Of a stretch of 64,000 bases of DNA, positions 6,791-51,352 are shown piece after piece (the first letter of the stretch is position 1; the number at the start of each line of letters is the position of its first letter). The position numbers were made by a program, and so were the translations under genes. The notes beneath the pieces are model-generated. The model made no database searches. It saw only the letters and a list, made by a program, of their open reading frames with translations, and was not told the DNA's origin. The DNA comes from Isoetes taiwanensis (lineage: Eukaryota > Streptophyta > Lycopodiopsida > Isoetales > Isoetaceae): NCBI GenBank assembly GCA_021234155.1, contig JAJEKV010000026.1, forward strand, positions 17,264,468 to 17,328,467, in the 5' to 3' direction.

Positions 6791-7604
6791 AGCATGGCAC
6801 GTCAGATATATCATCAGATTTTGCGTCAGACTATTCGTCAAATATTGCATCAGACTAATCGTCAGATGGTGCTTTTCTAGGCGCTATTACAATTTTAGTT
6901 ATAACATTTGATTGAACAGTATATTTTAGATGAAATTTGATGTTTCACAAAGCTCCTCGATCTGTCTAATGATGTATTATTTAATTAAGCTTGATTTAGT
7001 TCCGGGAAGGGGGGGAGGAGGGAAATTAATTTCCATCCCTAGCTAGTATTGTCTTTTATTGACCGTCAGATGGGGGCACCTTCAGAATATCTTTGGTGGC
7101 AAGATCAAAGCACCAATATTGAGTCGACATGGGGTCAAATTGACCCCATTAAATAGGAAGCCCGCCACAACACCATGGCTTCATCAAGTATACAACACGG
7201 GGAGCATGTACATACTCTGATGGTAAGCGGGCATAACTCAAACACAACATCCCCAAAGCGGATGCCCGATTGATTTCTTCAACGGGCCTCAAATAGAACA
7301 AAGCTGACGACACAAAATAAGAGTTGGCTTTATCGGATTCAAGCGTCAAGCGCTTTTTTGAATGCCACAATTTCTCTTTCTCGTTAAAGGCGGATGGGGT
7401 TAAATTTGGTGTTTAAATGGGTTATGGGAAATACTCCAATTGTTATACATACTCTAATATGCTAATGGAAGGAAGCGCTAAAAGCGGGATCAAACTCAAA
7501 AGGTCCATGTTTTGATGAAGGCAAGCTCTCATATAGATTACGCATTTTCCTTGCAAAGTTAGCATCTTCTTTCTTGAAGCCAATCGAACACAAAAAGCAT
7601 CAAG
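6791..7604. other. CACTA interior, no gene recognised
   Basis: AT-rich sequence with a TCAGAT-like short repeat near 6800-6870 ('cgtcagatatatcatcagattttgcgtcagac'). A weak minus-strand ORF at 7149-7370 has no motif I recognise. The right part may be more of the adjacent copia relic. Confidence 0.4.
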
Positions 7605-8440
7605 CATGCAGGTTTGCCAAACTTCCTTTGGGAAGAAGCGGTAAAAGATTGTTGTGCTAGTGCAAAATGCTTTGCCAACCAAAAGTCACGGAAGGTGTGT
7701 GCCCGAATTCTTATGGTCGGGAAGTATGCCTAACTTTGAAAATTATAAAGCATCTGGTGCATGGGATATACTCATGTTCCCAAGGAAAATAGATTAAAAT
7801 TAGATGACAGATGCATCATAACCTATTTGGTAGAATATGATGAGCATTCGAAAAGGTTCTGAGAATGTACAATCCGAAAAGAAGGAACATCATAGTGGCG
7901 AGAGATGTGACTTTTGTAGAAGAAAAATTATCAAGAGCCAAGGTCTATAAGCAAAGTGGAGATTAAGTAAAAAATAGTAGAGCCCTGCAATACAAATGTA
8001 AATGATATGGCAGATTTGGATGACAAGGTGGATAAGAATGCACAAAGCTTGGAAACAAATCTTAAAGATGCATGCAATGATGAGGAAATTGACAATGTTG
8101 AAGACAATAACAATAATGCAGAAAATCATGAAATGGTGGAGCATGAAATGGAAAAAAAGAAAAGATAGATAGGTAGATAGATAATATTTTTAACGTCACG
8201 CCACTGGGCATCAGACTTTATGGCAGAAAAGAAAATGGCAGGAGTTCTAGGTTGCAGTTACATGAGAAGGATCCTGAAGCACTCATAATTATGCAGACAT
8301 GTGTTCCTGAAACCTTTGATGAAGCTGTGAACATCATAGAGGCAAATAGATGGAGGGATGCCATGAATGAAGAGATTAATTCCTTTAACAGGACATCTAC
8401 CTATGAATTAGTTGACTTGCCTAAGGGATGTAGGAAACAA
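7605..8440 (+). pseudogene. Ty1/copia polyprotein relic (integrase C-terminal part to RT start)
   Basis: Frame-shifted translation recovers copia landmarks in order. From about 7625 comes the integrase stretch 'FGKKR..KIVVLVQNALPTKSH' and 'PEFLWSGSMPNFENYKASG'. At 7861-7923 follows 'MYNPKRRNIIVARDVTFVEE', which matches the usual YNPxxRKIIxSRDVxF block. At 8270-8440 is 'WRDAMNEEINSF..TYELVDLPKG', the block leading into the copia reverse transcriptase. The rest of RT, RNase H and both LTRs are absent, and stops interrupt the frames. It is an old fragment nested in the CACTA element, with no function expected. Confidence 0.75.
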
Positions 8441-21849: not shown

Positions 21850-23640
21850 GGCGGAGGCTCAATTCTTACTTGATCTTCCTCATTGTGGCCCTCTTTTCTG
21901 CTGATGCAATATTCATGGCGTTATCGTCTCCCCTCCGCCCGGCCAAGGCGGTCAAGACTGCAGTAAGTCCGGGGCTCATTGGTGGCACATTTCGAACCAT
22001 GAAAATACTATTTTTCATCTGTATGGTTTGTAAGTATCATTCTATTATTGCAACCAATATCATTCATGGTTATCAAATGTTTCTCTCACAATTTCTTTTG
22101 ATCTAGGTGTGCTCTTTTTCGGCGATGAATAGAGGTAATCGCAATCGCATCGGAGAATAGCGAAGATCTAACGTAAGTATTTATATAGTTTTATTATACC
22201 CTTTACCCTCTAATTAGGTATGTGAGTTTATGCATGGAGTTTTAATTTGTTGTGTAGATGAAAGGGACGAGTTTAGAGAAAATAGGAGGAGGACTTCACG
22301 AGATAGGGGCAATCGTGCTGATGTTCGAAGAAGCCAACCTCCACCTGTCACTACCAACAGGTTTGGGTATTAAGATAGCTTTTATAAAAATAATAAATAA
22401 ATGAATTGTTTTTTGCATGATATTTGTGTTTCGCTTCCTCCTCCGCAGCCCCCCCTTCTTCGCAGAAACATGTCTCCCCACCGAGAGACCAAATTAAAGC
22501 ATATTTTGCCTCTTTGACACCAACGCCAGTTAGGCAAGGCCTCCCGCCCTATTCCCCAACGCATATAGTGTTGATTATCGGCCTCCACGTTCTCGCGAGA
22601 ATATCGAGATCGCTAGACGTAGTATGGACTCCCGTTCTAGGCAAGAGACGGGAACAGATTTTTCTAATGCAAGGAACTTGGAGGCAGATTTCAACAGGTA
22701 AATATATATCCACTACGTACCAAACATTTCTTTGGTTGCAGCATGTTAAAGATGCTCATTCTCTCATTACTTCCCAGGTCAAGAAGTAGTGGAGCAAATG
22801 CACTCACTACGTTCAAGATCGCGACGATCATCACAGGGTTCGGGATCCGAAGAACATCGTCAATCGCCTGACTTGGAGAGGGAAGGATCCCGACGACGTC
22901 CACATGTCACTGAAGAAGAGCGTCCATTTCGCTTTGTTTTAGACACGTAAGTCTGCGGGTGATTTGGCCCCGAATATACCCGACTATCATATTAATAATA
23001 ATTTTTTGATGTAAGTTATGTGAACATATTATTTAAGATATCAACCTTAAATATTAGTACTTTGTCATCTAAATTTGTTGTTTTGTTCATTCTCTTCACT
23101 TAGAATACATTGTAAAGTGCTCAAAAGGTTCTTAATCGGGACGGGATATGTATATTGACGGTAGACATAAACACGCTTTTATATACCCACCATTTATGCC
23201 GGGACGCTCTTCCTAAGAAGGATGATGAGGGAAGTGTCTTTATACTACAACGGAGGGACGCTGGATCACAAATAATATCTCTCGTTTATGGCCTCCCCGC
23301 GGTATGGGGGAGTGGCCTGGCTTTATGACCAACGCGAAATAGAGAGCGCCAAAAATAAAATGAAACAAGTTTCCGTAGATAGAAAAAGCAAAAGGCGCTT
23401 AACCGAAGAAGCTCACTTCGATGATGGGAAGCTTCTAAAAAAAGGAGGTACATGACCTAGTCATAGTCTTGTTTTTATTATTTTGATATTGGCGTTGATC
23501 TATCGATTTATGTCAAAGGCAAAGAGTGGTCAAGGAACTGGCGGACTTTAAAAAAAAGAAGGAGGCATTGGTCAAAAGTCCCTAAACCACTTAATCTCCA
23601 CAAGGAAGATATCAAGGTATCAAGCCTCAGAATGCTTTGG
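21850..23640 (+). other. Possible multi-exon gene relic, family unknown
   Basis: Several open segments bounded by GT/AG-like sites are rich in Arg, Ser, Glu and Lys. After an acceptor at about 22257: DERDEFRENRRRTSRDRGNR. At 22590-22698: ENIEIARRSMDSRSRQETGT and following. At 22780-22947: VVEQMHSLRSRSRRSSQGSG.. ending FRFVLDT before GTAAGT. At 23330-23450: DQREIESAKNKMKQVSVDRK. At 23520-23590: VVKELADFKKKKEALVKSP. The hydrophilic, RS-like composition is consistent across pieces, but I recognise no domain. A further fragment at 25904-26010 (VADMNEGLEHDMGRGVDEGS) may belong to it across the pyrimidine tract. It could be transposon cargo or a host gene remnant. Confidence 0.3.
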
Positions 23641-23654
23641 GATGCAAAGAAGAA

Positions 23655-25515
23655 AAGCCATATCCCTTTCCCTTTCCCTTTGCTCTATCCCGTGATTTCA
23701 TTTTTCTTATTTTCTACTTTTTTTCTTTTTCCTTTCTTTTTCTCGCCTTTCTCACATGTTTCCTTGTTTTCCCATCCCTTTCCTTCCCCCTTCCCTCGCT
23801 CCCGATAATTTTTTCCCTTCCCTTTTTCTCTTTTCTCCACCTTTTCCCTCTTCTCTCTTTTTCTTTGCCCTTTTCCTTCCCCCTTTCCCTTTTTTTATGC
23901 CTTCTTTTCCCCACCCTTTTTTCCATGTCTTCCTTTTTTCTCAACCTTTTACTCTTTCTCGCCCTTTTCCATGCCTATTTTCCCTTCTCTTTTCCTCCTT
24001 TTCCCACTCTTTTTTTTCCTCCCTTTTTGTGCCTTTTTCCCTTCCATTTTTCTTTTCTCCCTCCCATTTTCCATGCCCTTTTTTACCTTCCCTTTTTCCA
24101 TCTCCTCACCCTTTCCCTCTTTTCCCTTTTCCATGTTCCCTTTTTCTCTTCCCCTTTTCCATTTTCCCTCATTTCCTTTTTCCCCGTGGCCTCTCTCTTC
24201 CCCTTTTCCATTCTTTTTTTTTTTTTCTATTTCCCTCTTTTCCCATGCCCTTTTTCCCTAACTTTTTTCTTCTTTCTATTTTTCCTGCGGTTTCCTTTTT
24301 TCCCTCCTCCTTTTCCCACCCTTTTCCCTCTTCCCTGCAGGTAATTTTCCCTTCTTTCAAACCCTTCCTTTTCCTTTCTCTTTTCCTTTCCTCATGTCCT
24401 TTTTTCCCTTTCCCTCCCCTCCATCACCCCCCCTCGGCTTCCCCTTTCCCATTTCCATTTCTTTTCTTGATGCTTTGTCGATCCTTTTCCCAGGTGACAC
24501 TTTTTCCTTTTCCTTTCCTTTTCCTTTTCCCCTTTTTCCATGCCTTTTGTAATACATTTGTTTTATTCTCTTATTTTCTATACCCATTTTCCTCTTTTTC
24601 CCCACCCTTTCTCTCTTGCCCTTTTTCTTTTTTTCCCCTTTTTCTTTTTTTTCGCTTTTTCCTTTTTAATTCCCTTTTCCCATGCCTTTTTCCTTTCACC
24701 AACTGCTTCTTTTTTCTCCTTTTATTTTCCCTTTTTTTCCTTTTTTCTCTTTTCCTTTTAATCCTTTTCCCTTTTCCCCATGCCTTTTGCCCTTCACATT
24801 CTCTCTTCCACTTCCCTTTTCTTTTCCTTTTTTCCCTTTTCCTTTCCCTTTTTTCTTTTTTCCCTTTTCCTTTTACCCTTTTCCCTTTCCCCCCATGCCT
24901 TTTTTGCCCTTCACATTCTCTCTTTCCACTTCCCCTTTTCCTTTTGCCCTTTTCTTCTCCCTTTTTTTTTTCCCCCTTTTTTTCTTTTTTTACCTTTTCC
25001 TTTTTTTCCTTTTTCCTTTTCCCCATGCCTTTTACCCTTTTCCCCTTTTCCCCATGCCTTTTTTCCTTTCACCACCCTTTTATCCTTTTCCCTTTTCCTT
25101 TTACCCTTTTCTTTTTCCCCCATGCCTTTTGCCCTTCACATCTCTCTTTCCACTTCCCTTTTCCTTTTTTTCCTTTTTCTTTTCCCTTTTCCTATTTTCC
25201 TTTTCCTTTCCCCTTTTTTTCCTTTTTCCCTTTTCCTTTTACCCTTTTACCTTTTCCCCATGCCTTTTTAACCTTCACATTCTCTCTTTCCACTTCCCTT
25301 TTCTTTTTTTCCCTTTTTCTTTTTTCCCTTTTCCTTTTTGCCTTTTTCCTTTTCCCCATGCCTTTTTTCTTTTCCCCCCCCTTTCTCTTTTCCTTTTTTT
25401 TCCCTTTTTTCCCTTTTCCTTTACCCTTTTTCCCCATGCCTTTTGCCCTTCACATTCTCAGCTCTTTCCACTTCCCTTTTCCTTTTCCCCCTTTTCATTT
25501 ACTCTTTCCCCTTAA
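23655..25515 (+). repeat. 1.9-kb polypyrimidine tract with embedded minisatellite
   Basis: Nearly pure C/T on the plus strand. The right half repeats a block 'ccccatgccttttgcccttc' plus 'acattctctctttccacttc' at about 24780, 24895, 25121, 25260 and 25436, with shorter 'ccatgcctttt' units between. The 611-codon plus-strand ORF and its Lys/Glu/Arg minus-strand partners come from composition and lack any domain. A mirror-rich polypurine-polypyrimidine tract of this length could adopt triplex (H-DNA) structure. Confidence 0.85.
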
Positions 25516-26095
25516 GAGATCGAACGCGATGACCAATCACAAAGTGTTGTTAAGTCGCGTAATAAATCTAGGCCTTCGAATGCATCCGTGATGATCTCAC
25601 CATTAAATTTAGGGGCTCGATGCACTACGACACTACGGTATAACATTTTATAATATAAGAAGATAAGAACTTTTAAATGTCACTAGCTAATACTCGTTAT
25701 ATTGTCATAGGAACATCTATACGGGTTTCCCCTAACAAGCAAAGACGCATACAAGTAGCCACTTTAACGTGGAGCCGTTTATCCAGATCAGGCTATATCG
25801 ACTGAGGAACCGGCCCCACTTCGAGGAATGCGGGGCGCTTTTAGAAAATTATTATAATTCTATGAACTACATTAACGCCATATTCTTTTGGTTTTTATAG
25901 GAAGCAGTGGCGGATATGAATGAAGGTCTAGAGCATGACATGGGGCGCGGGGTCGACGAGGGATCTGCAAACATTGCTGGAGAGCCATCCAATCGCAACC
26001 GCGCGGGCTGAGGGTTCGGCGCCATCAAACTACGTGCTGGATGACTACTTAATCGGACCGATGAGATTAGCTCTAGGCTAAAAGGGTGGATACTC
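25516..26095. other. No firm gene; weak exon-like pieces
   Basis: Contains one open piece after a 'tttttatag' acceptor (about 25900-26010) with no recognised domain. Otherwise unassigned. Confidence 0.35.
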
Positions 26096-26099
26096 CTCT

Positions 26100-26300
26100 T
26101 ATCGAAGTCTTTTTTGTGATTATTTAAAAATATAAATACAATTCACTTTTTGTGATTATTTAAAAATATAAATATAAAAAATAATTTTGTGACTATTTAA
26201 AAAATATAAATATAAAAACACTTTTTGTGATTATTTAAAAATATTTTTATATTTATATTTTTTATATAAATATATTTTTTATTTATTTTTTATTTTTTTC
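26100..26300. repeat. AT-rich tandem repeat 'ctttttgtgattatttaaaaatataaata'
   Basis: Three to four units of roughly 35-45 bp, then a run of TTTATTTTT words. It directly abuts the CpG-dense segment on its right. Confidence 0.7.
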
Positions 26301-26800
26301 CCTACACGCCAGATGCGACGTATCCACGCGGTTTTTTTTGCCACGCGGGCTTTTTCTACACGCCGGATTTTTCGATTTTCCCGCGGTATATTCCACGCGT
26401 TTATTCCATCGCGGTGACGCCGCGATGGTAACGATACACGCGGCTTTTACGCGATGTATATTCCGTGGTGTATATTCCACGCGGTATATTCCACGCGGTT
26501 CCCGTTCTGACGTGACGACGCCGCATGCACGATACACGCGGGTTTTTATGGGCACGACGTGGATTTTGTTGATGTTTCACGCGGTATATTCCACGCGGTA
26601 TATTCCACGCGGTATATTTCACGCGGTCACGCCGCATGCGACGATCGCGGTCACGCCCCGCACGACGCCATACGGCGACGCCGCCGACGCGTCGAGATGC
26701 GACGCGACGCCGCATGCGACGCGGTTTGCGGGCTGACGCCGCGTGACGACGCCTGCGCGATGCCGCCAACGTCGCGATAGACGCCGCACGCACGCCGCTA
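26301..26800. repeat. CpG-dense minisatellite (CCACGCGGTATATT)n
   Basis: The words CCACGCGGTATATT, CACGCCGCATGCGACG and ACGCGGTCACGCC recur in tandem and in both orientations. CpG density is extreme compared with everything around it. The short ORFs here are incidental. It lies immediately left of the retrotransposon primer-binding site, where the 5' LTR would be expected. Confidence 0.7.
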
Positions 26801-26865
26801 AATGACCTTTTTCTTGTTAAAGCGGTGGAGTGCAACCGTGATAATGCAGTAGGGGACGCCACAAG

Positions 26866-26877
26866 TGGTATCAGAGC
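26866..26877 (+). promoter_or_regulatory. Primer-binding site (initiator Met tRNA)
   Basis: TGGTATCAGAGC is the complement of the 3' end of plant initiator tRNA-Met, the standard primer for plant LTR retrotransposons. It is preceded by ..CCACAAG, so the LTR would end at CA near 26863. Confidence 0.9.
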
Positions 26878-27068
26878 AATGTTCTTGGAGACCAAGAGCA
26901 AAGCACCGCCATGCTCCCAAGAGAGTACTAACTTGATAGGATCCTCAAACCTCGAAAAATGGGAAATTTTTTCTCATTTTTGTAGTATATGCTAAGCTAG
27001 TAAAGTTAAGTGAATTAGAACATAAAAAGACTAAAATTAGTGAGCCAAAACCTTCAAAAAGTAGGATG

Positions 27069-27453
27069 GTCTCACACGTCAAGGCCAGAGCAATAATGAA
27101 AAGTTCATTTTGAGTCGGGCTAACGCGGTGAGACATTGAGCCAAAAACACCTTGAAAAGTGATGAATTTTTTAAAAGTAACATGGTAATTCAATTTCAAG
27201 CTAAAAACTAGCTAGATTAGTATGTTACATTCCTAAAAAACATGCTTAGAAAGTATAAAATTTAGCATCAAAATTCACCATGTCTCACAATGCCGCGCCA
27301 GAGCAAAATGAAACATTCATTATTGATCCAAGCAACGTATGAGACCATGAGGTTAGAAAAGTCTAAATTAAGCCATGTAATAGGTTAATAAGTGTCTTGG
27401 CTCACCCAAAAGAGTAATTTGAAATTTGACCTAAAATTGCCCATCTATAAATA
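27069..27453 (+). promoter_or_regulatory. Promoter-like module A: two hairpins plus TATA box, before the H3-like ORF
   Basis: Hairpin A1 (27069-27134) and A2 (27282-27345) are ~65-bp imperfect palindromes, starting GTCTCAC and ending GAGAC with AATGAA..TTCATT at the centre. The starts are 213 bp apart. TATAAATA follows at 27446-27453, in the context 'catctataaataga', 108 bp before the ATG at 27554. The same layout stands before the next ORF (module B). The A copies are more decayed than the B copies. A role as internal promoter is inferred from layout. Confidence 0.65.
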
Positions 27454-27553
27454 GACCTAGGACCCCCATTTCTAACGTTCTTCCTTAGAAAAATTGCTCC
27501 CCTTGTTAAGGCGATTTTTGGGCGCCCGACGTCGGATTGACGAGCTGTCAAAC

Positions 27554-28804
27554 ATGGCCCGGACGAAACAAACTGCTAGAGTTCCTCCAGGTGATACAAC
27601 TCCCAGCTTCCTACTCCAAGAAATGCTTCAGGAGCGCCTTTTTCACCAAGGAGGCCATCCTTCATCGGGTGAAGGGACATCGTCCGAGGAGCATCCCGAC
27701 AACACCACCAACCAAGGAGGGGATGAGACAGAAGTGGAGGAGGACGCACACTCAGATGCGCGGACAGAAGTCCTCGACAATGAGGAGCCAAACGCCATGC
27801 AAAGAGGTTTTTGAAGAAATGGAGGAGGAAAGGAAGAAGAAGGAGGAACAAGATCGGGCGCCGAGGAGCATGAAGAACGAGAGAGCCGACCCTGACCCAA
27901 ATTGAAGAAGAAGAATTAGCGGCGTGGATAAAGAAGCACGGTTTAAAGAACGCCGAGAGAGGAAGAGAGAAGAGAAGAAAAGGAAGAGGGACTAAGAGGA
28001 AGCCAAAGCAAAGCAGAGGAGCTGAGAGTGAAGAAGGGAAAGTTCGTGGAGGGAGGCCAAAGAAAAACTCAAGAAGGCCCCACGCCCAAGGTCGCCATCC
28101 GTTAAGCTGCTCAGATTCAGCCCCCCACCCTCCCCTGGGATGACTCGGGAGGATGAGGACTTTAATCCCTTCAACAAAGAGGCGGGATCTTCGGCTGACC
28201 CCGCCAATGTGCAGCTCCCCGACCGAAAGCAGCCCGAAAGCAGCGGTAGGTCCCCACCATACCCGACGTGGGACAAAAACAAAGCGCCGCAGCCAGCCCG
28301 AGAGGCGTATGTGATAGACCCCGTCAAGGTCTATCAGAAGAAACTAAGGGAGCACAATGCCTTCATGGCGAAGTGGGAGGCGTACAACACATACTACCAG
28401 CAAAACAGAGTAAGAACTATCGAAGGTGGACATCCGACGAAGAACCAGACTCTAAAGCCGCCACCACAGAAGCCCAAACCTCCTAGACCACCAGGCAAAA
28501 AGAGAACCGGCAGAAAGGAGAGCGAGAGGAAAGCCGTGAGAGAGATCAGGCATTTTCAGCGTAGCTTCGGGTTCTTGATCCCCCGTGCACCGTTCGCCCA
28601 ACTAGTCCGAGAGGTAATTCAAGAATACAACACGGAGATGAGGGTGACGGATGAGATGTTGCTGGCACTGCAAGAGGCAACAGAACAAAAACTAGTGCAG
28701 CATTTTGAAGATTCGACAGCCTGCACAGTCCATGCAAAGAGAGTGACACTAATGAAGCAGAGGACATGCATCTCGCTAGCTACATCAAGGGAGAGCGACC
28801 GTAA
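27554..28804 (+). pseudogene. Histone H3-like protein with long tail, encoded between primer site and gag position
   Basis: The ORF opens MARTKQTAR, identical to the start of histone H3 (K4 context present, K9 replaced by Val). An acidic then basic linker of over 250 codons follows, with Glu/Lys-rich coiled-coil-like text. The second half (from 28140) reads through a Pro/Lys-rich stretch into an H3 histone fold at 28530-28754. There AVREIRHFQ aligns with alpha-N, FLIPRAPFAQLVRE with alpha-1, LLALQEA with alpha-2, and FEDSTACTVHAKRVTLM with the alpha-2/alpha-3 region. Alignment to canonical H3 needs no gaps. Loop 1 lacks the extension common in plant CENH3, although LIPxAPF and TLM are CENH3-like. 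After one frame shift the C-terminus reads EDMHLASYIKGERP-stop (28802-28804), matching ..DIQLARRIRGERA. Two or more frame changes (~27810, ~27905-28130, ~28755) break the copy. The start was chosen for the exact H3 tail. It could act in chromatin targeting or packaging; this is inference. Confidence 0.85.
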
Positions 28805-28948
28805 AATTTTGGAAATAATAGAAAAATTTTGTTAATATGAAGAGTTTTTGACAAGGTAACATGTGCAATCTTGCTTAATTGAGTTAAGTTACTGAGTTCT
28901 AGCTTTTGTTTTAGTTAAAACTGACATTTTGAACAAAATTGAGAGGAT

Positions 28949-29395
28949 GTCTCACACGTCGCGCCAGGAGCGAAAATGAAAAGTTCATTTTTGGTCTGGG
29001 CGCAACGTGTGAGACCATGCCCCAAAACTGCCCAAAACAGCTCCAAATCGACCAAATAAGGGGTCAATTCTGCCTAACTCGATGAGTCCAGTAGAATTAG
29101 ACCCTTACATCACCCAAATTGGACAAGTTTAACCCATTTAGAGTCAATGTCTCACACGTCGCGCCAGGAGCAAAAATGAAACTTTCATTATTGGTCTTGG
29201 CGCAACGTGTGAGACCTCTCAGCAAATTCTCCACCATCCTCCAGTTTGTTGCAATAGGTTCATGCTAATCTTAGCATGCTCAAACCCCAAAAGTATTCAA
29301 ATCCTCATTTGGACCTCCTAATAGGTCAGAATTGCCCAACCCCAATAAAATTCTAAGTCATCCAAAAATTAGGGTTTTTCCCTTGTCTATAAATA
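28949..29395 (+). promoter_or_regulatory. Promoter-like module B: two hairpins plus TATA box, before ORF2
   Basis: Hairpins B1 (28949-29015) and B2 (29149-29215) are near-perfect ~67-bp palindromes. The outer stem is GTCTCACACGT/ACGTGTGAGAC, the inner arm is GCGCC/GGCGC, and the centre is AATGAA..TTCATT. The starts are 200 bp apart. TATAAATA at 29388-29395 precedes the ATG at 29506 by 118 bp. The downstream text 'aggcccccatttcc' matches 'ctaggacccccatttct' in module A. The arms hold ACGT cores and a CTTGGCGC word one base from an E2F site, so S-phase control is conceivable but unproven. Confidence 0.7.
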
Positions 29396-29505
29396 GGCCC
29401 CCATTTCCCACTTGACACCCTACAAGTCTACTCTTGACCCTTTAGGCGATCTCCCAGTTCCCATAGGCGCTCCTTCTGTTTGCTAGTCACACTTTCCCCA
29501 GAGCA

Positions 29506-30190
29506 ATGGCAACTGCTGACTTCAGGCGATGGTACAGCGCCAGTGCCCATGCAGCTGAGACCAACGTCAACAACATCTTCCAGCTTTTCCAGAAAGAGAT
29601 TGATGTCCAAGCAACCTTGCATACAACGCCAGCATATAGGCGAGTTTTAGCTGAGTTCCAAGCTAGGGTAGGTCAGTCCCTAGTACAGTTCCCCCCTTGC
29701 ACGGTCTATTTTGTTCCCCGCCCATCCCTACAAGCAGCCTTGGGTGATGTCCAGAACATTGCCAAGTATTTGATCAACAAGGCACAGAGGTTGCCAGACT
29801 ACATGGTCCCCGACAGCTTGGATGTGACCAAGTACTTTTCCTACACCGCCACGCTTGGCCATATTCCTTTCCCACCGCGGTCGAAAACCCAATAGCATCC
29901 TTAGCAAAGCTGCAATGTGATGCTTTTGCGCATTCGCCAGGAGCAAGAAGGAAGAACAGAAGAAGAGGAATCGGAAGATGAAGAATATGTGGAGCTCGAC
30001 CCAGCAGAAGAACAGCGGTTAGCGGAAGAGGAGTTAACCAACTTCGAGCGAAGCCGCCAGACCCTCAGAGTCGCTCCCCCACTTGGGCTAGGCATCACAA
30101 GCCTAGCCCCCATCATCATTGACGGTGAGGAGTACCTGCTCCTCACCGATATCCGATATCTCCCCAATGCGTGTAGAGGGAGTTCCGCTT
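29506..30190 (+). CDS. ORF2 in gag position, unknown family, frameshifted
   Basis: ATG at 29506 opens 129 codons (MATADFRRWYSASAHAAETN..) to a stop at 29893-29895. Translation continues in another frame as a very acidic segment (RTEEEESEDEEYVELDPAEE) and ends near 30190. A single-base indel around 29880-29915 would join them. There is no Cys-rich zinc knuckle (CX2CX4HX4C) and no gag motif that I recognise. Position and the following protease suggest a structural (gag-like) protein. It has its own hairpin-TATA module. Confidence 0.45.
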
Positions 30191-30639
30191 GACGAAGTTG
30201 CCGCACCAACCAGGGCAAAGAACCGCATTTGGACGACTTCATCGCCCGTGGAGTCTCGTGACTTCCCGCTTCAGTGAGAGAAGCCGACACCCACTCTGTG
30301 GGAGTCGACTTCGACATCCAGCCTACAAAGAACATAAGGCAAATAATGGAAGCTTGAGAACTGCCATCTGAGGAGGAGTTCTACATATGCCATCCAAGAA
30401 CGGATGGGGATCCGTGTCAAGACCACGAGCATCTTGATGCCGAGTTCTTCGACACCATCTCGCACAAGAGGAGCAGGAATCGACGTCAGGCGAGTTTCAT
30501 CGACAATTAGATACTACCAAGAAATCACTGAGGTAGAGGTCGATGAATACGCTGGAAGGCATAGAGCGGGAGGCCAAGCAGGTAGAGAGTCATCAGCAAC
30601 ACACAATGACAGGTCATTGAGGTACTACCTGCTTGTCCT

Positions 30640-31070
30640 TGAAGGACACCTGCTTCCTTTCCTGCCACATCTTTGCTGCTATAGATACAAAACAGGCAGA
30701 GAATCAGTATAGAGTAATTTCCACAATAGGGAACGCCAAAACCAAGTCCTTCATAGTCCTAATAGACTCGGGAAGTAGCCACAACTTCGCTTCCCCAAGG
30801 ATGGTCGACATATTGAAGTTTAAACCCTTAAAGTCCATGCCAAGGCCCGTAATCTTGGCGAGCGGAGCAATAAGACAAACGGCAGGGAAGAGGATCAATT
30901 TCGACATTGACTTGCCAGAAATTAATATCTCGATGGGGAGCGTAAGTAATGGACATCGGCAAGTACGATTGATAATAGGAATGGAGTACCTTGGACCAAG
31001 AGGGGCCATCATTGACCCGTGGAAAGTGGAAGGTGACCCTCACAACGCCCGACGACAAAGTTATTGAGAT
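30640..31070 (+). pseudogene. Retropepsin-like aspartic protease of the chromovirus
   Basis: The ORF from 30633 contains VLIDSGSSHNFASPRMVDIL (about 30750-30810), the Ty3-type D-S-G active-site block. IIGMEYLGPRGAIID follows (about 30970-31015), matching the usual ILGMDWL block. It cleaves the polyprotein during particle maturation. The junctions to ORF2 (30190-30640) and to RT (31070-31216) are frame-disrupted. Confidence 0.8.
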
Positions 31071-31215: not shown

Positions 31216-33910
31216 GTGCTCGAAGTTGCCCAAGCAAATAGCCAACTTGATCACGGAGTTCCACGATCTCTTCCCGATGAGATCGAAAGCAACTTCCTCC
31301 TTATAGGGACTCGAAAAGTAGATAGCACTCTAACCAGAACCAAGCCAACGAAAGCAAGGCTCCGTGATAGAATGACAACGCAGAACTCGACGGAGCTAAA
31401 GAAGCAATTGCAAGAATTGCTCGACCTAGGCTTCATTAGACCTAGCTGCCTCACCATTTGGGGCACCCATCCTCTTTGTCAAGAAGAAGGATGGCAGCTT
31501 TGAGGATGTGCATAGATTACAGACAATTGAACAAGCACACCATCAAGAACAAGTACGCACTCCCCAGATCGGACGACTTGATGGATCAACTCCAAGGGGC
31601 AAAAGTCTTCTCCAAGATTGACCTAAGGTCAGGTTATCATCAGATCAGGATAAAGGAAGAAGACGTCCACAAAACGGCCTTCAGGACCAGGTATGGGCAT
31701 TACGAGTTCACAGTAATGCCATTTGGGCTATCAAATGCCCCAGCAACGTTCATGAGACTCATGAACGACATCTTCAGGGAATTCTTGGACACCTTCGTGA
31801 TAGTGTTCTTTGACGACATTCTGGTGTATAGCAAATCCATTGAAGAACATGCACAACACGTAAGAAGGGTGCTCGAGAAGTTGAGAAGGCACCAGTTGTA
31901 CGCCAAGTTGTCGAAGTGCCACTTCGCAACAGAGAAGGTGGAATACCTGGGTCATGTGATTTCAGCAGAAGGAATCTCGACGGATCCTGCCAAGATTGAA
32001 GCGGTGATTCAATGGCCGGCGCCAAAGAACGTCTATGAGGTCAGAATCCTTGGCCTAGCAGGGTACTATAGGAAGTTCGTGAAGAACTTCGCAAAGATAG
32101 CAGCCCCACTAACAGACTTGACGAAGGCGGAAAAGGTAAAGAATTGGGCAAACCATTGGCTCAAGAAAGCACAAGCAGGCTTTGAATTGTTGAAGGAAGC
32201 CTCAACAACCGCCCCCGTCTTGACCCTGCCAGACCCAGAGAAGGACAAGTTAGTGGCGACAGACGCAAGTAAGATAGCCACAGGTGCAGTGCTCATGCAA
32301 GAAGAGCGGGTAATAGCGTATGACTCTAGGAAGATGAACGACGCCGAAACGCGTTACCCGACGCACGATCAGGAATTGCTTGCAGTTGTCAGGGCGTTAA
32401 GAATTTGGAGGCACTACCTCTTAGGAAGGAATTTCCAGTTGGACACGGATCATCAGAGCCTCCAATATGTATTCATGCAAGCACACCTTAACCTGAGGCA
32501 GCGAAGGTGGATGGAGTTCCTCGAAGAGTATGACTTTGACATAGTCTACAAGCCGGGGAAGCTTAATGTGGTAGCAGATGCACTTTCAAGGCATCCGCTG
32601 ACAACTAGAGTGCATTGCAATGCAATTTCGACACTCTCCAGTGATTTCGGGAAGAAGATTAAAGAAACATTGCCAACGGATGTGGACTTCAAGGAAGTAT
32701 GGGCAAGCTTGTGCAAGGAAGGCAGAACAGACAAGGAGAGGGAAACCTTCAAAAATTTTAAGAAGGAAGGTAACCTTCTGTACCATAAGAACAAGTTGTG
32801 CGTGCCGGAATCATCAGGAGTAAGGAAGCTGATCCTCCATGACACCCACAACAGCCCAATAGCTGGCCACGCAGGATTCATGAAGACATACTTCAAAGTG
32901 CGTAGCAGCTATTATTGGCCAGGAATGAAGAAGCAGGTAGCTCTCCACATCAAGGAATGTCAGCTATGTCAGCAAACGAAGGCAGAACAGCTTCGAATTC
33001 TAGGTGCATTGGAACCATTAGCGGTGCCAAACGCTAAGTGGGTCAGCATGGACTTCATAACGGGGCTTCCAAGGACAGTAAGAGGGAAGGATGCCTTGAT
33101 GGTCATGGTCGACAAGTTGTCGAAGATGGCCCATTTTGTGCCTTGCAGGACCACGGACACAGCTATGGATACGGCAAAGCTCTTCACCAAAGAAATCTTC
33201 AGGCTCCATGGCATGCCAAGGGAAATTATCTCCACCAAGAATCGGTTCATCGTTGCCTTTGGCAGTGACCTCTTTGCAACGATTCAGACGGCTATCCATG
33301 AGCACGGCCTATCATCCCCGTGACGGATGGGCAAACGGAGCGCATCAACAAGTAATATTGGAGGATATGCTACTTAAACTATGTCCGAACAAGCAAGGTA
33401 TGTGGTAGGAATTTATTCACTTGGTGGAATTTGCATACAATAGCACCAAGCAGAATCATCCAAAATGTCGCCATTCATGATCAACTACGGCTACCAATGC
33501 CTAACTCCGCATTAATTTGGCACAACCCCGTGTCAAAAGTGGAAGTTTCGCAAAGAAATGTTGGGCGACATGCAGCAGCTCGTGGAAGAAGTTCGAGGGT
33601 ATCTTCGCAAAGAAGGAGTCGACAAAAGAGCATCGCCAACAAACATCTGGACAGTCGTGAGAGTTCCAAGTTGGAGATGATGTATGGCTCAAGATCAAGG
33701 TAAAGCAGCGAAGTCTCGCGATCGAAATTGTAAGAAGCTTGCTCCAAGGTGGGCTGGACCCTTCGTAATAATCCAAAGAGTAGGTAACCAATCCTACAAG
33801 CTAGACTTGCCAAGACACTTAAAGATCCACAAAGTCTTCCACGGAGTTTGTCAAGAAGCACACCCCAATCCGCATGAAGTCTCGACACTCCAACGATGTT
33901 GGAAATGACG
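31216..33910 (+). pseudogene. Reverse transcriptase - RNase H - integrase of the chromovirus
   Basis: Pre-RT text (31230-31450, '[12 protein letters not shown]') joins through a frameshift to the long ORF at 31458-33323. RT shows [41 protein letters not shown] and the catalytic [10 protein letters not shown] (F in place of Y in YxDD). RNase H shows VATDAS..TGAVLMQ and a TDHQSL block. Integrase has the H-H-C-C finger ([14 protein letters not shown]...C..C) and the first Asp (SMDFITGLP). The second catalytic Asp site, usually SDRDxRF, reads STKNRF, so strand transfer should be lost. The ORF breaks at 33323; the C-terminal GPFVIIQRVGNQSYKLDLP block is readable at 33745-33830. It copies the RNA genome and inserts the cDNA in intact relatives. 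Confidence 0.92.
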
Positions 33911-33944
33911 TAAGAGCAGATAGAAATAGTTCCGTAACTAATTC

Positions 33945-34070
33945 TTGATAAAGCCGCTCAAGAAAACAAGGAGATCGGAGTTTCTCCAATACTTGGTCAA
34001 GTGGAAACACTTGCCGGTGGAAGACGCAGAAAAGAGATCCGACAAAGCAAGCATCTACGCTTATGGAGCA
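33945..34070 (+). pseudogene. Integrase C-terminal chromodomain
   Basis: The segment after the integrase tail reads EFLQYLVKWKHLPVEDAE, the core of a chromodomain (LVKWKGxPxxxAxWE). Chromodomains at this position define chromoviruses and direct integration toward modified H3 in heterochromatin. The expected Trp after 'EDAE' is lost through a frame change, so the fold may be incomplete. Confidence 0.75.
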
Positions 34071-34139
34071 ATGGGACTACAAGGTCATCTCCCAAGAAAT
34101 CGGGCTCGTGCATGTCGATTTGTGTAGATTTATAGCTTG

Positions 34140-34976: not shown

Positions 34977-36220
34977 TGTGACGTTCCAAAGACGATATAC
35001 CGGCCTCAAGACGATATCAGATCAAGACACACACGCCAGCATTAACCCATTCCAATTGACGGTAACGCCGACGCAGTAACCAAGCAAGGGCTCTAGGGGG
35101 CAATCTTGTAAGGGGTGCATTACACTTAGCAATGTGCACACCTTAAAATCTTTAACCCATTAAGTGCGCATCAAGAGTCATGGAAACCCTAAACCTAATC
35201 GAGAGCCTATGTAAGGTAACCAAACCCTAATTTTTCCCTTTCCGGGCCCACTTAACCTTCCGAAGCTCCAGCCAGGCTACCGAGGAGTCAAATCCAACTT
35301 ACAAGATCTGCCCAGATGCCCTAGCTCATCGATTTCTTCCGAATCGCATCCCCGCTGCAACAACGACATGGACGATTCGATCAAGAGGAGGAACCAGTGG
35401 ATCAGGTATTTAGTCGATTTAATAGTCTAAATCAGATTCCAGCCATCGAACCAATAGGTTTAGCCTATTAAATTGACCTTAGTAGCCAAGCTGCATCCCA
35501 AGATTGGCTCTAACTAAAGAACCTAACTCTATGATATAGATTAGTTCTTATTCTTTAGTTCTATGATGATGTGATGGATGGATGAATTTCGTGGACTCAT
35601 TGTATTGGGAAGGGGGTAGAGACTTAAAGCTTAGTTAGTTGATGCTTTTAGCTAGTCCCTCTTAGTGCATTACTAGATTTCGCCTGTGGTACAAGAACCA
35701 CACCGGTTGTGGGTGAAGGGGCCGACCGGCTCGTAAGGAGGTTCGTGGTCCCGACTCTTGACCGATCCCTCCGTGTGTAAAGTCTACCGGGATCAATGTA
35801 GACTAGGTCTAATGGCTTGCCACCGAAAGTGTGGGTAAGGCATGGGCTCGACACCCGTGGAGTGGTGTTCACTTTCCGGTGGGTTAAGTCGAATAAGGGC
35901 AAAGGGCCCTCTAGTCACCTTGAGTCAAGATGGAGACCCCTCGTGGGAGTGATCCCTACCCGCCCCATCTGAATCGGGAGATGCCGTGAATAGCCCCTTT
36001 GGCTATGCATCCCGGGCGGGCCAGTCCCAACACTCTTCAACCTACTCCAAAGTGCAACAAGAGGGGCGGATGGAGTGGACAACCCTATGCCATGTTCTCA
36101 TGCCGCCCAAATCCATTGTCATGATTCCGCTCGCGAATGAACTGAGACCTGCCGGGCTACCATTCCCTCGAGTCCGAGCCTTGGGTAGGAACCCACTTGT
36201 ATTGTGCTGATCTTTGTCTA
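34977..36220 (+). repeat. 3' LTR (right end uncertain)
   Basis: Starts TGTGACGTTCC directly after the polypurine tract. GC-rich text around 35690-36200 has the look of an R/U5 region. No matching 5' LTR is available in the window to fix the right end; 36.2-36.5 kb is an estimate. Confidence 0.55.
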
Positions 36221-39200
36221 TGCAGATGTTGATGTGCCATCCTTCAAGGTGGATATGTGATGATTATGTGTACTGACATGTATGTTTACGCTTCCGCAGC
36301 TAGGTAGGCCCTGGGGTAAAATGACCCCTTCACTCTTCCCACTGGGACCCAGTATGGTTACAGTGATATGTGGAGGGCCCTGTATCAACATGGAGCTGGT
36401 ATGGGGGATGAACTCCTCGCTTGTATACCTGAGTGAGTGCACCGACGCATAATGACAGTAGCCATTGATGTAGAACGATTGTTGCAACTCCCCTATACAC
36501 TGGCCATTTCTTTTGCAGGCGGGATGCCCTAACCTTGCAAAGTTCCTTCTTACGGTTACAGAATTGAAGACTCCTTTGTTTGTCGCCACCATATACGGAT
36601 TGTTACCCAACCCTTGACAGTAACCTTTGTGAATTATGGCAGGGACTAAAATTGGAAAGTATTGTCAAATCCAAATAACAAGCTAATTGCGTTCTTCTAC
36701 CATGCAAACCGATGTAAAATATACTAGGTTGTAATTGCATCGCTTTTGTGACTTGGCACTATTGTCAAGGGTGTAACTCATAATATGGACCATCATAGGG
36801 AGCATGCACTAAGACTTATTTAAATTTCTCAGAATATATGACTTGCTCACATCATCCAATCTCGATAAAACTATAGAAGCAGCCCAGTTTAGCTTGACTT
36901 AAAATGTTTAGCTTTTTTTTTTTTTTAAAGCTTGCACTATTCTCGCACACTCTTCAACTTTTTGCAGCTTTGCTCATAGACATCCTAGGCGGTGTTCCCC
37001 GATGATCCCAAATGGAATACAATTTTGCTAGACTATCGCTTCCCGCAGAATTATAAATTATGTGCTCGCTTCAATCACATTCCAACCCAAATCTTTTCTT
37101 ATGCATCGGTCCCCCGGCAGCTTTGATGATTGTTCGCCTTCATAATTTTGTGTATTCTCATCATCGTGCCTTTAAGATCTTTTATGTGGTTGAGATCATT
37201 GCATAAATGAGGCTAGATTTTTTTTCTTTTATTGCCTAATGATGATCCGAGGGAAGTAATTGAATATCCAACCTCGTATTGAGCTATTTGTAGTCAGTTA
37301 ATAGTACATTTTATTGTATTGGGAACAATGGGTCATTTTTTGTGCCGCCAAGATCCTCGAACGGATATTTTTTAGCATTGGAGATATTCAAGAAATAAAA
37401 TTCTTCAAATTAGCAGATAATCTCAAGAAATAAATTTCTCCAAATTAGCAGATAATAAATTGTAAATAAATACAAGGACACAATTTGAAAGGGGAGGATA
37501 CTATTACATTAGGTACAACAAGAAGCAACCTTAAGATACATATAGGTAGGCTTTTGCAATAAACTTGCATTTCCGATGTCTAGATACGATGGATACAATC
37601 AAATAGGAAGCTCATAGAAAATTGGAGCATTTTGTGAAGGGACACAAAAGGAATGAAGGTATATGGCAGTAGTTTTTAGTAGGAATGTCTTAACCGTAGC
37701 TTCATAAATCTTTCTTGGATTGGATAAGTCCCTTCTGAGGCAATTGGAGTTAGTAGACCCAGGTGTGGAGGCCCAAAAAAAGTAGCACATCTCCTACTGA
37801 AGGTAAAGTAGAAAGTGGAGTTTATTTAGCTAAGAAATTATCATTTAAAACTCACATCTCGTAGAGGCTCAACACAAATTCCCAAAATCTGCAAGGTTTT
37901 GTGAGCAAAGGCTTTTATTGACACGTATTTTAGATTCTCTTATTGTACTTGGTTATTATAACTTGTGAAAAACATAAGCATCAAACCTAACTGACTACTT
38001 TTTGATCTCATGTAGTTTCGGGATTGGTGTGCTTACCCTTCTGCAACGACTATGGCAGTGATAAAGAAAAAGACATCATTTACGATCGACGGCCAAAGAA
38101 GAGGGCACCTCGAAATGGAGCATGCCATATAAATGCATGGCTGATGTGTTGGGTCAACGCCGACCCAACAAGCTGAAATAATCGATAAAAAAAATGTGTC
38201 ATGTGGCCCTAGCATAAGAGTGTTTTGATAATTGGTAACCAGGGTTCGAAAAATATTTTAGATGTAACTAGAAAATTTGCCGTCTTCTATTCATATTTAT
38301 TGGATTTTATAAAATCGGACTGGAAACTGCAGTTCCAAAACAAAGTTGCTGGAAAATTTGCCTGAATTTATCACCCTTTAAAGGCTGAAACAAAAATACA
38401 TATGTTAACTGAAAAATAAGATCAAAGTAACTGAAGAATCTATAGAAAGGATCTCTTCGATTGGAAGCAGAGCACTAATTTGGAACATGCATACAAAGAA
38501 TGCCTGATAGGTTTGAAAGAGCATAGCAGTAGCCTCACATTCAATATTGCTGTCCCTAGGTAAAATGCAAGTCCTCCCGCAAAATTTCATTTGGCCTAAG
38601 GAAGAGCATTAATCCCCTAAAATTCTATGGCAGTGTTAGTGCCAGATCTATGAAGCCTAGAGCCACCCAGGCAACCATGACTCTTTAATGCACTGCAACT
38701 ATCCCATCGATCCGAGACATCGGATCGCCATTCTAGAATGAGACGAGCATGCATGTTTTGTATGCATGCGGGCGGCGCATGCCCGTTCTGGTTGGGAATT
38801 CGCTATTTTAGGCGCTAAGCCAGATCAACATCTCATCGGGCGCTTCCTCTTCTCTCGCCAGAAGCACCTCCTCTTTCTCTTTGAACCCACCCCCCTTCTT
38901 TGTTTATTATATTTGTCGCGGGCACGCTACAGAATCAGCCCCTCCACTCTGGGAGGTTTGTTTTGTTTCGTTTTTGTGGTGTTGGTGATGTGCAGGTACA
39001 GGTTGGCGTGCGACATCTGTTTCGACTTCTCCATTCGTGGGTTTTTTGGGAGCGATTTCTCTGCCTTGCGTTTGACTAAGCCCCTTGCCGAAGGTTTATC
39101 ACTAGGGTTTTTCCTCGAAAACCCGAAAGGGCGGGGTTTTTTAATCCCGGTGATAAGCTTTCAGCAGGTACACCAGCCGAACATCTGTTAGCATTGTATT

Positions 39201-49256: not shown

Positions 49257-51352
49257 ATGCTCGGATGGAAATTCAAAGACTTTGTTGTTAGAAGGAAGAG
49301 AAGATTAAGAGGTGAGACATATAAAAGAGGTTGCATGTGTCATTTTTCGCCAAGCAATTGTATATTAAACCCGAGTGGACTCAAATTATCTACTATCAAA
49401 GGAAGCATGTTAACATCCATGGAGTGTTTTGCCATGGGAATGCGCGACGAAGGTAGTCTCAAGACTAGGTACCGGCTTGCACCGTGGCTTTCAAAAAGAG
49501 AAGAAGGAATGGGTTAAGTCTTTGTTGGTGGATCTGCCATTCGGTAGGGAAGTTATGAAATTGCATGAGCATGAAGTTGTTCATAAGCTACAAATGTATG
49601 GGGAGGATAGCAAAGACAGGGATGACTTTCTCGAAATGGATGACATAGGTAACATATTTGATGAGGTTTCAAGGGGTACATGGAAACGTCATAACAATGT
49701 AACTCAAAGTGTTAGGATGTGGGTAGACCAAAATCCAGGGTCAGTGTTCTTGCATCAAGAAGGGGTGCCTTTCCATCTTGGAATCATGACACCATTTCAA
49801 ATGGAAATGCTCTTGAAGTATGGAAAGGGGAATGCAATTGCAATGGATGCCACTTTCAAGACAAATGACTTGAGGTTTAGTCTCTATACATTGATGGTGT
49901 TTGATAGTCATAGGAATGGAGTGCCGGTTGCATGGATCTTGGACGCCTAGTGCCAACGAAGATCAACATTCAAACCCGGCTCGAAAGCACTTGAAAATCC
50001 ATATTCATAAGAAAGATCCTGAATGGTCTCCCTCTTGTTTTATAGTTGATGATGCGATCTTTGAGATTGGTGCATTGGAGGTCAGATGGCCAAACATTCC
50101 CATCCAGCTATGTCTTTGGCATGTGAGACGTGCATGGTGGAAGGTTTTGATGAGACATGTGCATGACCCACAAGTTCGAAACGAGATGTTCAAGGACATG
50201 GGAGATATCATGTATAACACACATGTAGAACCCATAGAGGAGGATGGAGTGTTTAAAGATGAGTACAGAGAAGCTTGTGCTAGGGCTGGGGCTGCCCGCC
50301 TTGAGGAATTCAAATCGAAGTGGCAAAATTATGTTGAGATTGTGGCTTATGTCAATAAAGAGTGGACAAAGAATGTGTGTTCATGGATTATGGTGGCAAG
50401 GATGTATCCTCATAGTAATCAAGAGACAACTGCAGCTGTAGAGTCCTATCATGCTGCCCTAAAAAGGAGATTGGGTATTTTTAAGCACGAGCTAAGAGGA
50501 AGAAGATTGGATTGGTTGATATACATGTTAGTGAGTGATCTAGGGAACCACTTTATATATGATAGATTCGTGAAGGAAAATGGTTTCAAGCTGAATTATT
50601 ATAAAGAAATGGTTGTGGAGTGCGCAATAGTTGGAGCTAGGGCTATTCCAGATGACGCTGTTACTTGGACAAATTTTGAGGAAGGAGAGGCTCAGGTCTG
50701 GAGCCAATCAAGGCATGGAATTCCTTACTTTGTTGTTGTGAGTGACAAACAGTGGAGTTGTTGTGATTGTGCTTGGGGGACAAAGGGAAACATATGCAAA
50801 CACCAAGTTAAGGTGCTTCAAATGATGACTAATGCTCAGGAGAGAGAAATTTTGGCAGCATGTGGCACTATGATGGGGACAATGAAAGGTGGTTTAGAAA
50901 ACTTAGAATTCCATCAAGATGTTGCAAATATGAATGGTTGTGAAGAAGTCATTGAAGAAGTTGGTTGTCCCCCGGAAAGGGTGAATCTTGAGGGAGAGGT
51001 TGGCAAAGACGAAGGAAAAACCTATGCTGAAAATCAAAGTTCTCTATTGGCAAGTATAGAGGGTTCAATCAGACATGTGAAATCAACAATCGAAGAATGT
51101 CCTGGACTGTTGCATCATGTTGACTTCCTTATGAAGGAAGTTTGCAACAAGATACACTTGTTGAAAATTACATCACATCAAATGGGGATTAATGACATTC
51201 CACCACCTATGGCAGAAGGCAAGGACGATGGCACGGGCAATAGTCTCACTCGATTAAGATCTTTCATAGACCTTGGCAAGAAAAGCATTGGCACCATCCA
51301 TTATGAGAGTACCTTTGAGATTGATATGCATAAGCATCTACAAGATGAATAG
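49257..51352 (+). pseudogene. MULE transposase with SWIM zinc finger (mudrA-like)
   Basis: Three overlapping frames form one protein. 49257-49500 (YKRGCMCHFSPSNCI..) is the N-terminal region. 49500-49945 carries SVFLHQEG..FHLGIMTPFQM and the first catalytic Asp block IAMDATFKTNDLRFSLYTLM..VPVAWIL. 49950-51352 carries FIVDDAIFEI (second Asp), LCLWHVRRAWWKVL (the CLWH block), AAVESYHAALKRR (candidate Glu) and the SWIM finger WSCCDCAWGTKGNICKHQVK near 50755-50815. One extra A in 'tcaaaaagag' (~49497) and one extra G in 'cttggacgcc' (~49941) break the frame; removing either restores family-like text. It is related to the plant SWIM/FAR1-type proteins domesticated from MULEs. It would cut and paste the element via its TIRs. 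Confidence 0.9.

Follow-up and report, generated by a model that had tools for sequence, protein, structure and literature searches.

The window, that is, the whole stretch of 64,000 nucleotides of Isoetes taiwanensis DNA analysed here (contig JAJEKV010000026.1), carries on its forward strand an H3-like ORF (27554..28804), broken in this copy, that comprises a MARTKQTAR tail, an acidic/basic linker, a histone fold and an H3-like C-terminus. The exact H3 tail that an earlier note had read from these letters is present at 27554, and translation from this ATG (frame 2, stop at 27814) gives MARTKQTARVPPG...; in a tblastn search with canonical H3 the tail matched with 64.7% identity over 17 residues (E 0.078). 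Frame 0 is free of stops from 28032 until a stop ending at 28835, and contains the Histone domain. The claimed fold of H3 type (28533..28754) was recovered with the Pfam Histone profile (PF00125, E 6.4e-20, 72.1 bits against a curated cut-off of 26.4), with H3 as the top match among solved structures in PDB (E 4.4e-21), and with canonical H3 by tblastn (50% identity, E 1.5e-21). The C-terminus EDMHLASYIKGERP, followed by a stop (28760..28804), is also where it had been described, but it lies in frame 2, whereas the fold lies in frame 0. The window copy is therefore a broken member, from which the whole protein could not be made as it stands. The longest open run, of 267 codons, was equalled in none of 2000 dinucleotide shuffles of 27554-28835, and across the 74 columns of the fold the usual residue is kept in 14 of the 17 most conserved and 2 of the 16 most variable positions (permutation p 1e-4), indicating that the stretch is of coding origin. 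The predicted structure of the H3 piece (pLDDT 69, pTM 0.30) retrieved H3 as its best PDB match at E 1.4e-3, with none at or below 0.001.

The initiator tRNA-Met type primer-binding site TGGTATCAGAGC (26866..26877, forward strand) is the sole match in the window at up to one mismatch, and it lies upstream of the H3-like ORF, with Ty3 pol genes downstream, both as had been claimed; the claimed arrangement, with the H3 tail and fold flanked by a primer site and Ty3 pol, is thus confirmed. All features described next are on the forward strand. The ORF is preceded by a leader or promoter-like module (26863..27553) with two palindromes of ~67 bp (27068-27136 and 27281-27347), matched in 21 fetched loci (82-88% identity in the six alignments listed). 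Within it, a TATA-box-like sequence, CTATAAATAG (27445..27454), stands 109 nt upstream of the ATG; this sequence occurs at seven places in the window at up to one mismatch and is hence not rare alone. The inter-ORF module (28845..29493) is related to the leader (a local alignment scored 75, whereas 200 shuffles reached 28 at most), has palindromes at 28948-29017 and 29148-29217 and a second CTATAAATAG at 29387-29396, and is 92% identical over 543 columns to its counterpart in L029/L049. The region 26863-29493 can be described as a duplicated promoter-like module, with two TATA-like boxes and a total of four palindromes of ~67 bp (GTCTCACACGT...), preceding the H3 ORF and a second ORF, ORF2 (29506..29895). 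The latter has no known domain and a predicted structure of low confidence (pLDDT 45), and is perhaps kin to the second ORF of the family B copies described below, to which it showed weak similarity (E 0.01 in a two-sequence search).

Further downstream are an aspartic protease (30633..31067; Asp_protease_2 3.4e-4, below the curated cut-off; 88% identity in L049) and the reverse transcriptase, RNase H and zinc-binding part of the integrase (31458..33323; RVT_1 7.7e-39, RT_RNaseH 7e-34, Integrase_H2C2 1.8e-18), for which at least 70 other genome places, with 89-93% identity, were found among the matches listed. An integrase SH3 domain and a chromodomain core follow in broken frames (33681..34124; SH3_Tf2-1 1.1e-15, Chromo 9.9e-4, the latter below the curated cut-off). 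The 3' LTR (34977..36444) comes after a purine tract; its end matches the sequence before the primer site of family A copies (89.8% over 235 columns in L031), and along some 1.1 kb it shares 80-81% identity with both LTRs of the copy at C907:39.60-39.61 Mb. Self-BLAST and local alignment yielded no LTR pair for the window copy, and the GC-rich stretch at the expected position of the 5' LTR (26000..26862, no strand assigned) matches no fetched copy, so that the 5' LTR must have been lost or replaced here. The Pfam scan detected no gag domain in the pieces of the window copy scanned, and its H3-to-pol gap, about 2.7 kb by coordinates, compares with 4492-4574 bp in paired copies; on these two grounds, we infer that gag was deleted from this copy. 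An Rfam search returned no match. Elsewhere in the window there are a long pyrimidine-rich tract right upstream of the element (23637-25591, CCCTTTTCC...) with strong GC and AT skew, tandem repeats with a spacing of about 1.1 kb and 81-86% identity (1290-6012), and remnants of a MULE-type DNA transposase that score less than the Pfam cut-offs (49429-51352).

The genome searched comprised 1,658,258,908 bases in 1110 contigs. When two separate lists of matches, for the H3 piece and for pol, were combined, all seven H3-pol pairs had a gap of 4492-4574 bp, and no pair was in the wrong order or on the wrong strand within 9 kb. Among the best 12 relatives of pol, with 1.2 kb upstream examined, eight had a match to the H3 ORF (in L053 and L060 the best matches fell mostly or wholly in the linker) and four had none. 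In the copy at C907:39.60-39.61 Mb, an H3 match and a 1618-aa frame with a pol match lie between two LTRs that share 95.1% identity over 1625 columns (the 3' LTR is truncated where the fetched stretch ends), and partial LTR pairs (92-98%) were found in three of 20 loci (L011, L022 and L026), most stretches ending too early. Copies with both LTRs and the same order, for which the earlier note had proposed to search, thus exist, and the ORF is not peculiar to one copy, given at least 149 further listed matches, eight of the 12 best pol relatives and the seven fixed-gap pairs. A gag gene was found downstream of the H3 ORF in L027 (Ty3_capsid 2.7e-15 and a weak CCHC match), which carries Gag, PR, RT and INT there, and in L049 (Retrotrans_gag 1.8e-17). 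The earlier note had spoken of the gag position, which here can mean only that of the first ORF after the primer site, since gag itself lies downstream of the H3 ORF in these two relatives, and we rejected the idea that the H3 ORF replaces gag. The gag-PR-RT-RH-INT order (gag from relatives L027 and L049) and the chromodomain core after the integrase are traits of Ty3/Metaviridae chromoviruses; two LTRs and a primer site were shown for the family, the window copy having a primer site and a 3' LTR only. The lineage is therefore one of Ty3 chromoviruses in which an H3 ORF comes first, between the primer site and gag.

The H3 piece of the window matched at least 149 further places in the genome, with 66-95% identity, among the matches listed (10,528 first-look candidates, 150 scored, at least 151 matches), part of which carry internal stops. 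From this group, referred to here as family A, 20 copies picked for long open frames were fetched. The histone fold, with TATAAATAG upstream, is present in all 20, and the primer site is exact in 15. In 14 copies a frame of 398-467 aa runs without a stop from MART[K/E] across the fold, a TATA box lies 106-117 nt upstream of its ATG, and 11 of these starts are exactly MARTKQTAR; the remaining six copies lack an in-frame start of the MART[K/E] type. In 19 copies the fold continues in frame into a similar C-terminus, which is changed in L048, one of the 14. The family A tail keeps only H3 residues 1-8 or 1-9, the full conserved H3 tail of ~40 residues, with K4, K9, K14, K27 and K36, being absent. 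Position 9 is a valine in six of the 14 starts, and K9 is followed by proline (ARKP) in the other eight, and the proposal that K9 is always lost was rejected on this count. No ARKS was found in the 20 open frames. With L048 left out, R52, R72, R83, H113, R116, D123 and L126 are kept in 17-19 of 19 copies; R63, K79, F84 and R129 are lost, with P63, N79, V84, D86 and E87 instead and no R129. Because of these losses and the changed residues 86-87, family A proteins may not assemble like H3. Among 516 candidates from a linker search of public proteins (the host's own possibly not being covered), no match reached E <= 1.

A second family emerged from a Pfam histone search of the genome (8705 first-look candidates), in which 150 places were scored. 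Fifteen of these scored 164-165 bits, and the eight that were read are canonical H3; the other 135 scored 144-155 bits and had open frames of up to 494 aa. Twenty of the 135 were fetched, mostly for long frames, and 19 were used (L012 was left out). In all 19 copies of this family B, an open frame of 289-494 codons ends with the H3 fold or soon after it, and the four proteins scanned scored 141-144 bits with Pfam Histone (cut-off 26.4). The exact primer site is present in 14 of the 19; window-type pol was found within 10 kb in 14 loci (44-78% identity) and was not found within that distance in five. The N-terminus, of ~330 aa, is unlike a histone tail and matched no Pfam family, and the N-terminal part of L016 had no match in PDB. 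Most copies have a TGGK-like piece near the fold, followed by KPRKPHRFRPGTVALREIR or similar, and ARKS occurs in one of the 19 open frames (L022), outside the tail-like piece. The order in L016 and L027 is the H3 ORF, two ORFs without known domains, gag, PR and RT, and the chromodomain core YLVKWKHLP was found in seven of the 20 fetched loci. Extra ORFs between the H3 ORF and gag (L014:3075-4520, L027:3089-3730 and L027:4698-5207) gave no Pfam match at E <= 0.1. With L013 left out, R49, R52, K56, R63, R69, R72, R83, H113, R116, T118, D123, L126 and R129 are present in 17-18 of 18 copies, and the subset R52, R72, R83, H113, R116, D123 and L126 in all 18. Residue 77 is glutamate in 15 of the 18, matching host H3, which fits a capture within this plant lineage; four of the 18 combine H87 with L90, which we take to be marks of plant H3.3. 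In L024, a second, diverged H3 fold lies in the opposite orientation (7467-7682, minus strand), less than 5 kb from the first. The element copies of H3 number hundreds at least, and the first-look counts would allow thousands. Element copies can swell the number of histone H3 genes that is counted in genomes of this kind.

The folds of both families are under strong purifying selection. By the Nei-Gojobori method, the median dN/dS of the family A fold was 0.068 (20 copies, 142 of 190 pairs usable) and that of the linker 0.199 (189 of 190 pairs); for family B, the values were 0.032 for the fold (19 copies, 80 of 171 pairs) and 0.122 for the N-terminal part of eight copies (17 of 28 pairs). The unusable pairs for the folds (48 of 190 in A, 91 of 171 in B) had a saturated or tiny dS. 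All usable pairs had a dN/dS below 1, with dS values of 0.7-1.0 for the folds; the choice of copies with long open frames biases the sample against dead copies, but cannot alone create low dN/dS at a dS of 0.7-1. These comparisons, which the earlier note had suggested, show that the H3 segment is not a single recent retrocopy, since the fold values of 0.068 (A) and 0.032 (B) hold across copies.

Chromoviruses read histones through their integrase chromodomain, and host genomes silence retrotransposons by marking H3; here, an element of the chromodomain type also encodes a histone. We consider it likely that the ORF specifies an element-encoded, selected H3 variant that acts on chromatin, and the data suggest a chromatin protein made by the element to deal with the packaging of host DNA. 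A Ty3 chromovirus lineage would have acquired a host H3-type gene and retained it as its first ORF. Family A copies would make a protein of ~400-470 aa from their own TATA-type promoter, whereas the product of family B, with an N-terminal domain of another kind, would measure about 410-450 aa. The element fold may then pair with host H4 and enter nucleosomes, most easily in family B, which has lost hardly any of the examined H3 residues that contact DNA or a second H3; judged from these residues, such entry is plausible for family B and less sure for family A. The resulting nucleosomes would bear the element tail, which in family A would read ARTKQTAR and then either V in place of K9 or K9 and a proline, and neither family's tail would offer the ARKS context in which K9 and K27 stand in H3. 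The main benefit may be a weakening of silencing based on H3K9/K27 or a tethering of the integration machinery to chromatin. The near-absence of ARKS, together with V or K9-P at position 9, favours an anti-silencing H3 variant, a role that we hold tentatively, at somewhat under an even chance, and a pure K9-avoidance account is weakened by ARKP in eight of the 14 family A starts. Tethering, its main competitor, appears the more doubtful of the two. The earlier note had suggested entry into nucleosomes, steering of integration or evasion of silencing as putative uses. An H3 of its own, kept under selection, could be a direct counter-move to silencing by H3 marking, and the element H3s would offer a natural experiment on the residues of H3 that count in silencing and integration.

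The histone protein could instead act in the particle or as a partner of Gag, coating element RNA or cDNA or bridging Gag and integrase to chromatin. The ORF precedes gag, and its N-terminal parts are long, charged or perhaps folded, and do not resemble a histone tail. Both features would fit such a role, which we regard as possible though rather improbable: L027 and L049 each carry a separate capsid-type gag, so no gag replacement is involved, and family B keeps the residues relevant to nucleosomes.

The origin of the fold bears on a further alternative, that family A is a stolen CENH3 targeting the element to centromeres. In the fold tree, which has few columns, a midpoint root and long stems and from which the host's own CENH3 was left out, family B grouped with host H3 (support 99/93) and family A with CENH3 (98/94.6). 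The capture of an H3/CENH3-like gene, as had been proposed, is supported. The window fold is also closer to the nearest plant CENH3-type proteins (57-60% identity) than to canonical H3 (49-50%). However, in the alignment its loop 1 has the length of that of H3 and lacks the W of the longer loop of the plant CENH3 matches. In addition, both families have long stems, a single shared capture of A and B was not rejected (AU p 0.138), the tree lacks the host's own CENH3, and the family A copies are spread over many contigs. We therefore consider centromere targeting unlikely. When the window fold was analysed alone with out-of-frame residues removed, its placement in the tree was loose and CENH3 kinship was not rejected (AU p 0.518); a first tree, which had placed the fold outside CENH3 and close to canonical H3, at the tip of a very long branch, was discarded, as out-of-frame residues had been included. 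It is conceivable, as a minority reading, that one chromovirus lineage holds two H3 systems in the same slot, A derived from a CENH3-like gene and B from a canonical or H3.3-like gene, and provides the plant nucleus with H3 variants of element make, their tails escaping the usual K9/K27 contexts of silencing, in an arms race between transposons and plant chromatin at the level of histones.

LTR elements transduce host genes, and the ORF might thus be a host H3 mRNA carried along passively. Such transduction by LTR elements has been described (PMC6431247), but passive carriage is very improbable here, given median dN/dS values of 0.03-0.07 at dS 0.7-1.0 within the sampled copies, the constant position of the ORF, the TATA box at a fixed distance and the deep split into two families. 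A joining of an H3 block and a pol block from two elements, at the locus or in the assembly, would account for the mismatch between the 5' and 3' LTRs of the window copy, but is refuted for the family, and hardly credible overall, since the end of the window 3' LTR is matched by that of the 5' LTR in H3-bearing copies, and elsewhere H3 and pol occur jointly, a fixed gap apart, and with paired LTRs; a rearrangement at the 5' end is confined to the window copy itself.

The preferred reading, an H3 variant encoded by the element and acting on chromatin, has parallels in other mobile elements and viruses. Our literature search (with preprints outside it and subscription journals thinly covered) found no histone gene in any LTR retrotransposon, and the word "histone" does not occur in the main texts of the genome papers of I. 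taiwanensis (PMC8566536) and I. sinensis (PMC10541799). In Pyrenophora tritici-repentis, a hAT DNA transposon has transduplicated H3-like (H3L) genes, 26 in number, with tail insertions and grouping with neither H3 nor CenH3, as far as the consulted part of that report goes (PMC3538342). Both cases involve a mobile element with an H3-like gene; however, the Pyrenophora carrier is a DNA transposon with near-identical, recently expanded copies, whereas in Isoetes two families of LTR retrotransposons, with LTRs and Ty3 pol rather than hAT TIRs, show deep divergence and low dN/dS. Viral histones, such as the bracovirus H4 and single viral H3s, often have a long N-terminal tail, and bracovirus H4 joins host nucleosomes and acts via its tail, according to the consulted part of a review whose main text does not contain the word "retrotransposon" (PMC9145170); these histones are likewise encoded by parasites, but are carried by DNA viruses rather than an LTR retrotransposon. 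Plant Ty3 chromoviruses, including Selaginella elements, share the tRNA-Met primer site, gag-pol and chromodomain with the Isoetes element, but the consulted part of their description mentions no histone gene (PMC3350952). The LTR retrotransposons of bdelloid rotifers have likewise captured extra ORFs, of Env-like, esterase and exonuclease types, in a source with no occurrence of "histone" in the part consulted, but theirs is ORF3, after gag and pol, whereas the Isoetes H3 ORF is the first (PMC5408684). What appears new here, on the literature covered, is H3 in an LTR retrotransposon, host genes captured by elements, the H3-like gene of a hAT transposon and viral histones being of an already known kind.

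Searches of IMG/VR with the H3 piece, ORF2, pol and the palindrome, and of GTDB contigs with the H3 piece, gave no match. Against public proteins (the host's own possibly not being covered), the best near-full-length identity among 8000 matches to pol was 55%, and the H3 piece yielded 80 matches from 189 candidates, all with a Histone domain and covering 30-54% of the query, with one at 70%. Four metagenome proteins (P0043, P0049, P0050 and P0073), on separate contigs of 8-93 kb, share a long N-terminal extension ahead of an H3 fold, and possibly represent another repeated H3-bearing element from another organism.
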